From: Bacillota bacterium
GTDB taxonomy: Bacteria; Bacillota_I; Bacilli_A; RF39; UBA660
Direction: 5' to 3'
Assembly: GCA_021771185.1 (NCBI GenBank)
Contig: JAETPN010000001.1
Span: 130,366 to 194,365, forward strand
DNA length: 64,000 nucleotides
Program-made: the position numbers and the translations under genes
Shown: in pieces, positions 48,268 through 53,036 of the stretch
How positions within the stretch are numbered: the first letter of the stretch is position 1
How the letters are laid out: each line of letters begins with the position of its first letter
The notes under the pieces: model-generated
Told to the model about the DNA's origin: nothing
The model's input: only the letters and a program-made list of their open reading frames with translations
Database searches by the model: none

Positions 48268-48972
48268 ATGTTAAAGTGGTTAAAAATGTTGTTTAAAGAT
48301 TTTTATATTTTTACCGCAGCTTATTCGAATCAAGTATTCCCAGATCCCCTATCTAAAGAAGAAGAAGAAAAACTAGTAGAACAATTTCGTTTAGGTAATA
48401 AAGAGGCACGTAATCAATTAATTGAACACAATTTAAGACTCGTCGCACATATTGTAAAAAAATATGATCATCGCAGAGAAGACGCGGATGATTTAATTAG
48501 TATTGGAACGATTGGATTAATTAAGGGAATTGATAGTTATTCTAATCATCATCAAACAAGACTCACCACTTATTGTGCAAGATGTATCGAAAACGAAATT
48601 TTAATGTATTTTAGAACAGATAAAAAAAACAATAAAAATATTAGTATTAATGAAGGTGTTGGATTTGATAAGGAAGGAAATGAAATTACCATTCTAGATA
48701 TTTTAAAAACACCAAAACCAGATTTCGCTATGGATCTTCATCTTAAAAATAATATTAACTTGTTAAAAGATTATTTTAATGTTTTAACAGAACGAGAAAA
48801 ACTCATTATTACGAAACGTTATGGACTAAATAATCAAGATGAAATTACACAAAAGGAAATTGCCAAAGAACTTGGTATTTCTAGAAGCTATGTATCTCGT
48901 ATTGAAAAAAGAGCCTTAACAAAAATGCTTAGAGAATTTATAAAAAATAAGGACCACACATTTGATAACTAG
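48268..48972 (+). CDS. sigK: Sporulation sigma factor of the SigK type
   Basis: A 234-residue sigma-70 family protein. The first 20 residues are hydrophobic and aromatic (LKMLFKDFYIFTAAYSN) followed by FPDPLS, which fits the pro-sequence that is removed from SigK. Regions: NLRLVAHIVKKYDH (2.1-2.2), LISIGTIGLIKGIDSY (2.3), ARCIENEILMYFR (2.4), ITQKEIAKELGISRSYVSRI (4.2). It controls late mother-cell genes in sporulation. The gene is uninterrupted, without a skin-type element. Confidence 0.9.
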   Translation: MLKWLKMLFKDFYIFTAAYSNQVFPDPLSKEEEEKLVEQFRLGNKEARNQLIEHNLRLVAHIVKKYDHRREDADDLISIGTIGLIKGIDSYSNHHQTRLTTYCARCIENEILMYFRTDKKNNKNISINEGVGFDKEGNEITILDILKTPKPDFAMDLHLKNNINLLKDYFNVLTEREKLIITKRYGLNNQDEITQKEIAKELGISRSYVSRIEKRALTKMLREFIKNKDHTFDN

Positions 48973-48985: not shown

Positions 48986-48988
48986 TAC

Positions 48989-49022
48989 TAAAAAAAGATC
49001 ACACTGTTATCGTGTGATCTTT
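48989..49022 (-). terminator. Terminator of ileS
   Basis: AAGATCACAC/GTGTGATCTT stem with T run on the minus strand, touching the ileS stop codon. Confidence 0.8.
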
Positions 49023-52000
49023 CTATGCTTTTTCTACTTTCAATCCTGTTTCATGACCATTAATATCAAACGTTTCGGTTAAAGATTCATCTTCATTAAA
49101 TGCAAGCGCTAAAGTCTCAGACTTAATGAATTCTTCAAAATGATTGATTGCTTCTTTTACTTCTTCATCCGCTTGATAAGATACATTAATACGATCTGTA
49201 ATATTAAAGTCATTATTTTTTCTTAATTGTTGAACTTTAGAAATAATTTCACGAGCAATTCCCTCTTCCATTAATTCTTTGGTTCGCTCTGTATTTAAGA
49301 TAATAAAGTTATTATTGTACATTGCAACATTAAATCCTTCTTTAGGACTAATACGAACATCTACAAGTTCATGATTAATTTCGTAATCTGTTCCAGCAAT
49401 TTCCATCGTTAATGTTTCATGGTCTCTAATTTTTGAGATTTCTTCTGTAGATAATTCAGCTAGTTTTTCACTAAATATTTTAACATTTGGACCAAACATT
49501 TTACCAGCTACTTTAAAGTTTGGTTTTACCATCATATTCATATATTCATTTAAATCACGTGTAAATACCACTTCTTTTACGTTTAACTCTTCTTTAATTA
49601 GTGGGACTAAATCGTTAATTAATGATTCTTTTGATCCATCAATTAAGGCTTCACTAAGTGGTTGACGTACTTTAATTTTTGATTCTTCACGAACATTTCT
49701 TCCTAAACGAATAAGTTCACGAACTAAATCCATACGTTGCTCTGTTTCTTCGTTAATTAACGTTTCATCATAAGTTGGGAAGTTAGCAAGATGAACAGAT
49801 TCTTCATTCGTTAATTTGGTATAAATTTCTTCTGTCACATATGGTGCAATTGGTGCACACATTTTACATAGTCCAACCAATACTTCATAGGTTGTGATAT
49901 ATACACTTTTTTTGTTTGTATCTAAGCTAGATGCCCAGAAACGATCACGATTACGTCTAATATACCAATTTGATAAATCTTCAGATACAAAGGAAGTAAT
50001 CGCACGTACCACATTATTTAAATCAAAGGCTTCATATTGTTCTGTTACATAGTGTAATAATTTATGATATTTTGATAACAACCAACGATCTATTTCTTCT
50101 CGATCTTCATAAGATACTTTACATTCTTCAATGTTAATTTGATCAATATTCGCATAGGTTTGGAAGAATGTATACGTATTCTTTAATGGGTTAAAGAATT
50201 TAGAATATACTTCTTTTAATCCTTCTTCATCAAATTTTAATGGTGTCCATACTGGAGAAGCATATAACATATACCATCTTACAGTATCTGCCCCATATTG
50301 TTTCATAATCTCTACAGGATCAATAATATTTCCTGTAGATTTTGACATTTTCTTCCCTTCAGCATCCAACATCATATCATTGACAACTACATTTTTGAAA
50401 CTTGATTTACCTGAAATAATTGTTGAAATAACAAGTAAAACATAGAACCATCCACGTGTTTGATCAATTCCCTCAGCGATAAAGTCTGCTGGAAATTGAC
50501 TTTCGAATAATTCTTTGTTTTCAAATGGATAATGGAATTGAGCATATGGCATAGAACCAGAATCAAACCATACATCCATCACATCAGGCACTCTTGACAT
50601 TGTGTTTCCACAATGTGGACACTTGATGTGCAGTTGATCAACATAAGGACGATGTAATTCCATTTCTCTTACATTAATATCTTCTACAACCATTTCTTCT
50701 AATTCATCTAAAGATCCAATAACATGGAAATGATCACATGCGTCACAAGTCCAAATTGGTAGTGGACATCCCCAATAACGATTACGACTAATTCCCCAGT
50801 CAATCATATTTTCTAACCAATTATTAAATCTTCTTTTTCCAACATAATCTGGATACCAATTAATCTCTTGATTTGCTTTAATAATTTTGTCTTTATATGC
50901 TGTTGTTCTGACATACCATGCTGGTTTTGCATAATAAAGTAATGGTTGTTTACAACGCCAACAATGTGGATAATCATGTTTCATTTTTACTTTTTTAAAT
51001 AATTGATCATTTTCTTTTAAATATTTAACAATTTCAAGTTCTAATTCTGGATCAGTTACTAAACGCCCTTTCCATGGACCTTCTGTATAACATCCGTCTT
51101 TTCCTACTGGATTAATGAACGTTACATTGTTTTCTGAACATACACGGTTATCATCTACACCATAAGCAGGAGCAATATGAACAATACCTGTTCCATCTTC
51201 TGCCGTAACATAGTTATCCGCAAGCACTACGAATGCTTTTTCACCATCAGGTACTTTTACATATGGCATTAATTGATCATACTCTATACCAACAAGATCC
51301 GTTCCTTTATATGTTTCTAGTACTTCAAATTCATCCCCCAGTACTTGGTGGGCTAAACTTTCAGCAAGAATAAATTTATAGCCCATCGATTCTACTTTTA
51401 AATAAGTTAAATCAGGATTCACACATAATGCGACATTCGCAAGAAGTGTCCATGGTGTGGTTGTCCATACTAAAAAATATACATCTTCATCTTTTTTCTT
51501 AAATGGAACAATAACGGTATTTACTGAAACTTCTTTATATCCTTGGGATACTTCATGAGATGCAAGTTCTGTTCCACAACGTGGACAATATGGTAGTACT
51601 TTATTTCCATGATAAATTAAATCTTTTTTAGCCATTTCTTTTAAAATCCACCATTCAGATTCAATATATTCATTATCACAAGTAACATAAGGATGTTCAC
51701 AATCAATAAATTGACCCATCATGTCTGTTACACGGTGTACTTCATCGATATTACTATCGGTTTCAATATTACATTCCTTACAAAAGTTTTCTACTCCAAA
51801 ATCTTCAATATCTGATTTATTCGTAAAACCTAATTTTTTTTCTACGTTAACTTCAATAGGTAAACCATGAGTATCTAATCCAATTTTTCTTAAGACATGA
51901 TATCCTTGCATCGTTTTATATTTACAAAAAGCATCTTTAATGGTTTTTGCGAATACATGATGAATTCCAGGTTTAGCATTTGCGTAAATTGGTCCATCAT

Positions 52001-52142
52001 AAAACACCCAATCCTTTTTTCCTGCCCTATGTTCCGTAGTTAAAGTTAAGATATCTTTCTCTTTCCAATGATTTAAAATATGTTCTTCAACCTCATTTGT
52101 TTTTCTTTTATCTAATTCTTCAAATGTACAATTTTTACACAT
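49023..52142 (-). CDS. ileS: Isoleucyl-tRNA synthetase, type 2, with GIHH in place of HIGH
   Basis: A 1039-residue class I synthetase from ATG 52142, 7 bp after GGAGGA; an ATG 6 bp earlier is too close. Length and segments such as KTMQGYHVLRKIGLDTHGLP, YIESEWWILKEM and FPADFIAEGIDQTRGWFYVL fit eukaryote-like IleRS2, not the roughly 920-residue IleRS1. The first signature motif reads P-GIHH-VFA (residues 59-62), where type 2 enzymes usually have P-HYGH-LLA. KMSKS is normal. IleRS2 is known for low mupirocin sensitivity. A T-box precedes the gene. Confidence 0.96.
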   Translation of the reverse strand: MCKNCTFEELDKRKTNEVEEHILNHWKEKDILTLTTEHRAGKKDWVFYDGPIYANAKPGIHHVFAKTIKDAFCKYKTMQGYHVLRKIGLDTHGLPIEVNVEKKLGFTNKSDIEDFGVENFCKECNIETDSNIDEVHRVTDMMGQFIDCEHPYVTCDNEYIESEWWILKEMAKKDLIYHGNKVLPYCPRCGTELASHEVSQGYKEVSVNTVIVPFKKKDEDVYFLVWTTTPWTLLANVALCVNPDLTYLKVESMGYKFILAESLAHQVLGDEFEVLETYKGTDLVGIEYDQLMPYVKVPDGEKAFVVLADNYVTAEDGTGIVHIAPAYGVDDNRVCSENNVTFINPVGKDGCYTEGPWKGRLVTDPELELEIVKYLKENDQLFKKVKMKHDYPHCWRCKQPLLYYAKPAWYVRTTAYKDKIIKANQEINWYPDYVGKRRFNNWLENMIDWGISRNRYWGCPLPIWTCDACDHFHVIGSLDELEEMVVEDINVREMELHRPYVDQLHIKCPHCGNTMSRVPDVMDVWFDSGSMPYAQFHYPFENKELFESQFPADFIAEGIDQTRGWFYVLLVISTIISGKSSFKNVVVNDMMLDAEGKKMSKSTGNIIDPVEIMKQYGADTVRWYMLYASPVWTPLKFDEEGLKEVYSKFFNPLKNTYTFFQTYANIDQINIEECKVSYEDREEIDRWLLSKYHKLLHYVTEQYEAFDLNNVVRAITSFVSEDLSNWYIRRNRDRFWASSLDTNKKSVYITTYEVLVGLCKMCAPIAPYVTEEIYTKLTNEESVHLANFPTYDETLINEETEQRMDLVRELIRLGRNVREESKIKVRQPLSEALIDGSKESLINDLVPLIKEELNVKEVVFTRDLNEYMNMMVKPNFKVAGKMFGPNVKIFSEKLAELSTEEISKIRDHETLTMEIAGTDYEINHELVDVRISPKEGFNVAMYNNNFIILNTERTKELMEEGIAREIISKVQQLRKNNDFNITDRINVSYQADEEVKEAINHFEEFIKSETLALAFNEDESLTETFDINGHETGLKVEKA

Positions 52143-52251
52143 ATACATTCCTCCTTTTTTATATTATTATTTTATCTTGTTATAAATGATCTCTGTTTAT
52201 TTATATTCATCTATATTTAGAGAATACCGAAACACATTAAATTCATTTATA

Positions 52252-52445
52252 AAACAAAAAAAATCTATAAATTTAAGGACGTATTACCGTGGTACCACCT
52301 TAATTTATAGATTATTATCTACCTTAAAAGCGTAACGTGCTTCTCCGGAACTATCTTCATAGTCACATCTAGAGTGATCTATTTATATTTCTACTTATCG
52401 TTTGCACCAACCACGAATTCTCTTTAAGCTTTCATATAAATCGTC
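52252..52445 (-). promoter_or_regulatory. T-box riboswitch of ileS
   Basis: The minus strand has the T-box core AAGGTGGTACCACGG, an antiterminator region, and a terminator formed by CTATAAATTAAGG and CCTTAAATTTATAG followed by eight T. Stem I begins near 52445 (AGAGACGATTTATATGAAAG). Uncharged tRNA-Ile would favour read-through into ileS. I did not fix the specifier codon. Confidence 0.92.
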
Positions 52446-52458
52446 TCTATCATTTGTT

Positions 52459-52968
52459 TTATAATTCTAATTCATCAATTTCATCAATAACTTCAAGTTG
52501 TGCCTCTACAATATTTTTAAGACGTCTTTTAAAAGTATGTACATTACGTCTTAATGTGGCTGCACTATCTTCTGTTTTTTCAGCACGAAGTAAGGCATCA
52601 TTTACAATACGTGTTGCATTTTTCTTGGCGTTATCAACAATAGTTTCACATTCTTTATGAGCTGCCATACGCATTTGATCTGAGGTTTTTTGTGCCATCA
52701 TAATGGCTTTATTTAAAGTTTCTTCGGTTCTCCTGTATTGTTCTAGTTTTTGTTTTAAAAGAACATTTTCTTGTTTTAAAGCATCATTACCAGATGTATT
52801 TTGTAACTGTTCTGTTAAAGACTTAATTCGTTCATCACGAATTCGTATTTCTTCATTTCGTTTATTTAATTCAGCAACCATATTCTCAACCTTATGAATC
52901 ACTTGATCTAAGAATTGGTTCACTTCTACAGGATCATAACCACGAAGTGTTCGATTAAACTTTTCCAT
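52459..52968 (-). CDS. divIVA: Cell division/polarity protein DivIVA
   Basis: A 169-residue protein from ATG 52968 behind TGAGGT (an earlier ATG at 52992 lies close to a TATAAT and lacks a site). FNRTLRGYDPVEVNQFLDQV is the membrane-curvature-binding N-terminal domain; a long coiled coil follows to residue 120, and a helical C-terminus. It marks poles and septa. Order sepF-divIVA-ileS is conserved, with ylmG and ylmH missing. Confidence 0.93.
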   Translation of the reverse strand: MEKFNRTLRGYDPVEVNQFLDQVIHKVENMVAELNKRNEEIRIRDERIKSLTEQLQNTSGNDALKQENVLLKQKLEQYRRTEETLNKAIMMAQKTSDQMRMAAHKECETIVDNAKKNATRIVNDALLRAEKTEDSAATLRRNVHTFKRRLKNIVEAQLEVIDEIDELEL

Positions 52969-53036
52969 ACCAGACCTCACAATCTTTGGCATTAGTCCAT
53001 ATTATAGCATGCCTTTTCCTTTTATTCAATACCTAA

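Follow-up and report, generated by a model that had tools for sequence, protein, structure and literature searches.

The window, a stretch of 64000 nucleotides from a Bacillota genome, contains an ileS gene whose product reads GIHH in place of HxGH, which is among the least variable motifs of class I synthetases. As G/AxHH is a published path to extreme mupirocin resistance, the locus raises the question of what kind of isoleucyl-tRNA synthetase (IleRS) this gene encodes, whether the cell relies on it alone and how it came to occupy a position where close relatives carry IleRS1. Our answer, held with high confidence, is that it encodes the only, housekeeping IleRS of its cell, a T-box-led IleRS2 in which the first and third HxGH residues have changed places and which is predicted to be refractory to mupirocin, and that IleRS1 and GxHH IleRS2 are homeoalleles repeatedly exchanged in one slot of the family. 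The gene and its domains are as follows.

49023–52148, minus strand: ileS, IleRS2 type, open reading frame of 1041 aa from the first ATG
50964–51542, minus strand: CP1 editing domain, residues about 203–395, containing WTTTPWT and HIAPAYGVDD
50337–50351, minus strand: KMSKS motif, canonical, residues 600–604
49650–50090, minus strand: anticodon-binding domain PF08264, from a domain match
49029–49601, minus strand: C-terminal domain PF19302 (DUF5915), residues 850–1040

The reading frame is intact, and a second ATG at 52142, with GGAGG 7 nt before it, is the likelier start and gives a protein of 1039 aa. The two starts account for the numbering of GIHH as residues 61–64 (1041 aa) or 59–62 (1039 aa). 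Membership of IleRS2 was judged by a length of about 1030–1050 aa, an HYPFE signature, an IleRS2-type C-terminal domain and grouping with IleRS2 in a tree. The window enzyme has 1041 aa, HYPFENKE and DUF5915, and the tree split it from IleRS1 with 100% support. It scored 950 bits against TIGR00392, the curated ileS model (cut-off 621), so that the score, DUF5915, the alignment and the tree all bear out the IleRS2 type assigned in the earlier note. The editing peptide WTTTPWT and the HIAPAYGVDD region are unaltered in the alignment, the C-terminal domain is unremarkable, and the closest matches of known structure are those of P. megaterium IleRS2, likeness to which settles the fold. One marker disagrees. 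Tyr59 of E. coli IleRS marks IleRS1 and is replaced by Phe or Thr in IleRS2 (PMC4861432), and both the window enzyme and all 84 of the 84 distinct members of its subclade have Tyr. Because the Tyr subclade is nested among Thr/Phe enzymes, Tyr is a derived change within IleRS2 and does not exclude the enzyme from it; the tree and the remaining markers outweigh this one.

Three positions in the active site depart from the usual IleRS2 pattern.

51957–51968, minus strand: GIHH (GGA ATT CAT CAT) replacing HxGH, from the codons and the alignment
51984–51986, minus strand: Tyr codon at the site equivalent to Tyr59 of E. coli IleRS, Thr or Phe in other IleRS2, from the alignment
51876–51878, minus strand: Leu codon for the conserved Trp of GWDTHGLP, from the alignment

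An alignment with IleRS2 and a published GxHH enzyme had been proposed in the earlier note. In the phmmer alignment GIHH lies opposite HVGH of P. megaterium IleRS2, without a gap through YDGPIYANAKPGIHHVFAKTIKD. Three P. megaterium IleRS2 structures were aligned, two with HVGH and one, 8c8w, a GVHH mutant. The gap-free alignment across the motif rules out an ordinary HxGH elsewhere in the protein, and with Gly in the first place and His in the last two places of the HIGH position the window enzyme is of the G/AxHH kind. The reading that residues 59–62 are GIHH, with the first and third positions of HxGH exchanged, is confirmed by the codons and by this alignment. As all 104 relatives read (104/104) have G[ILV]HH, the motif is neither chance nor a sequencing error.

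According to the main text of Brkic et al. 2023 (PMC10485003), G/AxHH is found in 86 of 163 bacterial IleRS2. It makes the mupirocin Ki two to three orders of magnitude higher, since the third His does the catalytic work of the first and collides with the antibiotic. The catalytic cost of GxHH is described there as small, and IleRS1 does not tolerate G/AxHH. In the same text, the D. radiodurans IleRS2 (ALHH) has a mupirocin Ki of 6.6 mM, and introduction of GVHH into two other IleRS2 raised the Ki 175- to 430-fold. If it works like the GVHH enzymes of known structure, the window enzyme would use the third His of GIHH in the catalytic role of the first; the bulk of this His would clash with mupirocin, so that the enzyme would charge tRNA-Ile normally yet be almost immune to the antibiotic. 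The mupirocin resistance suggested in the earlier note is likely on the strength of the motif; two more active-site positions set the window enzyme apart from the GxHH enzymes that were assayed (Tyr for Thr/Phe and Leu for Trp), so their Ki values are not transferable with certainty. The motif class and its mupirocin hyper-resistance are already known from the main text of PMC10485003. A further statement, that GxHH IleRS2 had been reported from Bacilli, is unsupported by that main text, where the natural G/AxHH enzymes assayed are those of Streptomyces griseus and Deinococcus radiodurans and the Bacillaceae enzyme, P. megaterium IleRS2, has HVGH in nature and was mutated to GVHH.

The genome of the window is 1.24 Mb in 40 contigs, 93.9% complete and probably metagenome-derived. 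When it was searched with the TIGR00392 profile, a single match lay above the cut-off and no second ileS was found, the other matches being weak and ValRS-, LeuRS- or MetRS-like. The earlier description of this gene as the only ileS seen holds for the genome at that completeness, and a second copy in the missing part is possible. Among the 26 genomes with GxHH IleRS2 in the 37-genome family set, none had an IleRS1 match.

The gene is flanked by a regulatory leader and two conserved neighbours.

52272–52462, minus strand: T-box leader RF00230, 84.3 bits, E 1e-18, just below the gathering score of 93
52378–52376, minus strand: Ile specifier ATC (AUC), from the alignment
near 52300, minus strand: T-box core AAGGTGGTACCACG, from the sequence
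ending near 52252, minus strand: T-box terminator, from the sequence
52459–52992, minus strand: divIVA, upstream neighbour, 74–81% aa identity to sister species
48268–48972, plus strand: sigma-factor-like gene, convergent neighbour, 83–84% aa identity to sister species

Of the parts looked for in a T-box, namely Stem I with its specifier, a core and a terminator/antiterminator, the leader has an AUC specifier, the GGTGGTACC core and a terminator, and the orthologous leaders in the sister species (L172, L173 and L175) score 94.6–99.2 bits, above the gathering score. Together with the RF00230 match, these establish the T-box that had been proposed before ileS. An Ile T-box would raise ileS expression as uncharged tRNA-Ile accumulates, and the leader presumably responds in this way here. 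B. subtilis is arranged likewise, with divIVA adjoining ileS and a putative Ile T-box (PMC5282499). Several relatives have a sodium/calcium-exchanger-like gene (about 315–340 aa) after the Ile T-box and before ileS (L182 8100–9047, L183 8101–9054, L187 7446–8393, and also L292, L295 and L299); it precedes IleRS1 in some and IleRS2 in others, and is absent from the window.

All four other genomes of the window genus (g1) carry IleRS1, with HCGH where the start of the gene is present. The window IleRS2 and the sister IleRS1 share 29% identity, against 58–95% for the flanking proteins. The order rplS, lepB, a pilin-like gene, sepF, divIVA, T-box, ileS is common to the window, G001, G002 and G004, and the convergent sigma gene then follows ileS wherever the sister contig extends; G003 covers the sigma side only. 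DNA homology to the sister species stops at 52252, where the T-box terminator ends, and restarts at 48986, immediately past the stop codon, which leaves one segment between.

48987–52251, no strand assigned: segment without flank-type DNA homology to the sister species, comprising ileS with about 105 nt upstream and 36 nt downstream

The exchanged unit is ileS with a short leader, and the T-box is common to both states. This comparison includes one genome of the window species. A recent foreign arrival of ileS, judged by composition, was rejected, as GC and GC3 are as in the neighbours (GC3 17.3% for ileS, 17–24% for neighbours). An assembly or binning artefact, in which the IleRS2 fragment of a related organism was joined into the contig, would suit a multi-contig genome whose neighbouring DNA is 73–76% identical to that of IleRS1-bearing genomes. 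We regard it as very improbable, because ileS lies inside a 274,770-base contig of matching composition and is joined to a T-box and a sigma gene orthologous to those of the genus, and because an equivalent difference appears independently in genus g64 and, less completely, in other genera.

In seven further genera one genome has IleRS1 (901–922 aa) and another IleRS2 (1031–1065 aa), with one ileS each, making eight genera with both types. A single ileS was present in the 5 g1 genomes and in 14 genomes of the seven other genera; the exceptions with two are G265 and G727. In g64 the breakpoints could be placed at base level, with 80% DNA identity through the T-box and 72% restarting after ileS. 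In g24 the slot is the same and flanking homology is found on two sides, and in g139, g57, g148 and g155 slot homology is one-sided or partial. As expected of homeoalleles, the two types are divergent in sequence but alike in function, a genome normally has one of them although both are found within one taxon, and they are exchanged in a syntenic context (at base level in g1 and g64, two-sided in g24, partial in the others). A hand count on the ValRS tree, which covers 17 family genomes, gives at least three type changes, but several forks are weak. The divIVA–T-box–ileS slot holds either IleRS1 or GxHH IleRS2, the two having been swapped repeatedly within the family, and we infer that the exchange most simply occurs by homologous recombination in the conserved flanks. 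Separately, valS too seems to exist as two forms only about 30% identical within the family (G014 C44, G013 C28, G011 C2, G018 C50 and G003 C78), with G003 apparently carrying both, and may be another synthetase that alternates as homeoalleles.

The direction of the exchange in g1 could be the opposite of a gain of IleRS2 by the window species: GxHH IleRS2 would be ancestral in the genus, the window gene original, and IleRS1 acquired by the sister species. The ValRS tree leaves the window genome (G000), (G001,G002) and (G003,G004) as an unresolved trichotomy, while neighbour genes set the window genome outside (75% to G001 and 73% to G004, against 79% between G001 and G004), and GxHH IleRS2 is the majority type of the family. 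On the other side, the family's IleRS1 genes form one clade with those of the genus as a subclade, so that IleRS1, too, has long been resident, and other families of the class carry IleRS1 for the most part. We give this opposite direction a little under an even chance.

The predominance of the GxHH type was seen in several samples. Among 37 genomes of the window family, 26 have GxHH IleRS2, eight have IleRS1 and one a divergent IleRS2; no ileS was found in the remaining 2/37. A G-x-H-H DNA pattern matched at least 215 of 291 family genomes, a lower bound as the pattern admits only Gly at the first position. The 163 distinct main-clade IleRS2 fetched comprise 146 GxHH, two [KR]xHH and 15 HxGH, and all 15 HxGH enzymes are from outside the window family. 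Canonical-HxGH IleRS2 occur elsewhere in the class in families f16, f20 and f8, and other families mostly have IleRS1. Named relatives, at 63–73% identity, are Candidatus Faecisoma merdavium and MAGs that carry the labels Bacilli, Erysipelotrichaceae or Tenericutes, many of the MAGs being from animal gut and rumen. This is probably the RF39-like group.

These sources bear on why the types alternate. Soil Pseudomonas is a known source of mupirocin, whereas the named relatives are from animal gut and rumen, and the main text of PMC10485003 notes that faster growers have IleRS1 and slower ones IleRS2. The exchanges could be neutral or driven by another factor, such as growth rate or a different IleRS inhibitor, with resistance incidental. 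Against this, GxHH shifts the mupirocin Ki by orders of magnitude at little catalytic cost in that text, and has no known alternative function; we consider incidental resistance a serious contender, somewhat less probable than not. What goes beyond the known motif class is that the gene alternates repeatedly with IleRS1 in one slot, behind a T-box that stays in place, and that the active site varies more widely around it.

That variation includes the Tyr/Leu pair of the window enzyme. Tyr with Leu occurs in 84 of the 163 distinct main-clade IleRS2, which are all 84 of the window subclade, and Thr/Phe/Ser with Trp in the other 79; no mixed case was found among the 163. In the tree all sequences with Tyr/Leu fall into a single clade (100/100 support) that lies within the Thr/Trp enzymes, so the pair is one linked event and not repeated coevolution. 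A pattern barring both Gly and Ala at position 1 matched 4 of 319 family genomes. KIHH is present in G096 (L217) and G224 (L216), within a lineage of divergent IleRS2 that shows YRNGFDGQGLWVE and KFSKT, RVHH in G206 (L275/L227) and KLHH in G156 (L278/L287), and each of the four genomes has one ileS. The [KR]xHH enzymes occupy three places in the tree, each next to GxHH relatives, one placement being weakly supported. As the two KIHH genes differ at synonymous positions across the motif, Lys has been maintained.

Other members of the divergent lineage are L218 (G035), L219 (G091), L220–L222 (G265, G121 and G727) and L168 (G447, from another family). The lineage shares about 36% identity with the window enzyme and has FDGQGLWVE for WDTHGLPVE, with a KFSK-type KMSKS in several members. 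In G224 the divergent IleRS2 fills the same sepF–divIVA–T-box–ileS–sigma slot. The two-ileS genomes G265 (L279, L291) and G727 (L285, L222) pair IleRS1 or a main-clade IleRS2 with a divergent IleRS2; contamination is 3–5% and the pairs may be unreal. G035 has HVGH beside GIHH and KIHH relatives in the tree, which looks like a reversal. A broader and rather doubtful proposal is that the family represents a natural re-tooling of the IleRS active site: one T-box slot would take IleRS1, GxHH IleRS2 or divergent IleRS2, the signature would have moved on to the unreported [KR]xHH in three lineages with an apparent return to HVGH, and Tyr59 with the Trp-to-Leu change in the window subclade would possibly restore tRNA-dependent pre-transfer editing to a mupirocin-hyper-resistant enzyme.

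Across a large group of uncultured gut-type bacteria the permuted motif is the usual condition, and its in-place alternation with the sensitive type between close relatives provides matched pairs for comparing cost, benefit and selection. The Tyr/Leu pair and the Lys and Arg first residues are natural mutants with which the catalytic role of the motif can be tested on purified enzymes, and they open a possible trade-off between resistance and proofreading to direct test.

Several known systems resemble this locus in part. The G/AxHH IleRS2 of S. griseus and D. radiodurans, as described in the main text of PMC10485003, share with the window enzyme the IleRS2 type, the exchanged first and third HxGH residues, a canonical KMSKS and a housekeeping role. 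The window enzyme differs from them in its host of the class Bacilli, its T-box, Tyr at the E. coli Tyr59 site and GLDTHG for GWDTHG. First-position residues in that text are Gly, rarely Ala and nothing else, and are widened to Lys and Arg in relatives of the window enzyme. The IleRS of Acetoanaerobium noterae (NZ_CP154629.1, L210) has GIHH as in the window, 53% identity over 99%, an upstream T-box (139.7 bits) and the same divIVA–T-box–ileS order, and the window clade groups with this Acetoanaerobium enzyme in the tree; unlike the window enzyme, it is from Clostridia and has Thr and Trp at the two remodelled sites. L210, entered in PLSDB as a 2.6-Mb 'plasmid', contains ileS, sepF, divIVA and a TrpRS-like gene; it is probably the chromosome. 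MupA of a Staphylococcus plasmid (L214) is also a mupirocin-resistant synthetase of the IleRS2 type, but has a canonical HTGH, is an extra plasmid copy and shares about 40% identity. The P. megaterium IleRS1/IleRS2 pair likewise places both types within Bacilli; in the main text of PMC10485003 the two are in one genome and both HxGH, whereas in the window family there is normally one per genome in one slot. A parallel to the exchange is found in the TyrRS, ThrRS and SerRS homeoalleles, which as here are divergent, identical in function, one per species and in a conserved neighbourhood, with exchange by flank recombination proposed for TyrRS (PMC3191353). IleRS is unmentioned in that paper, and here the exchange toggles the type of an antibiotic target under a T-box that is kept.
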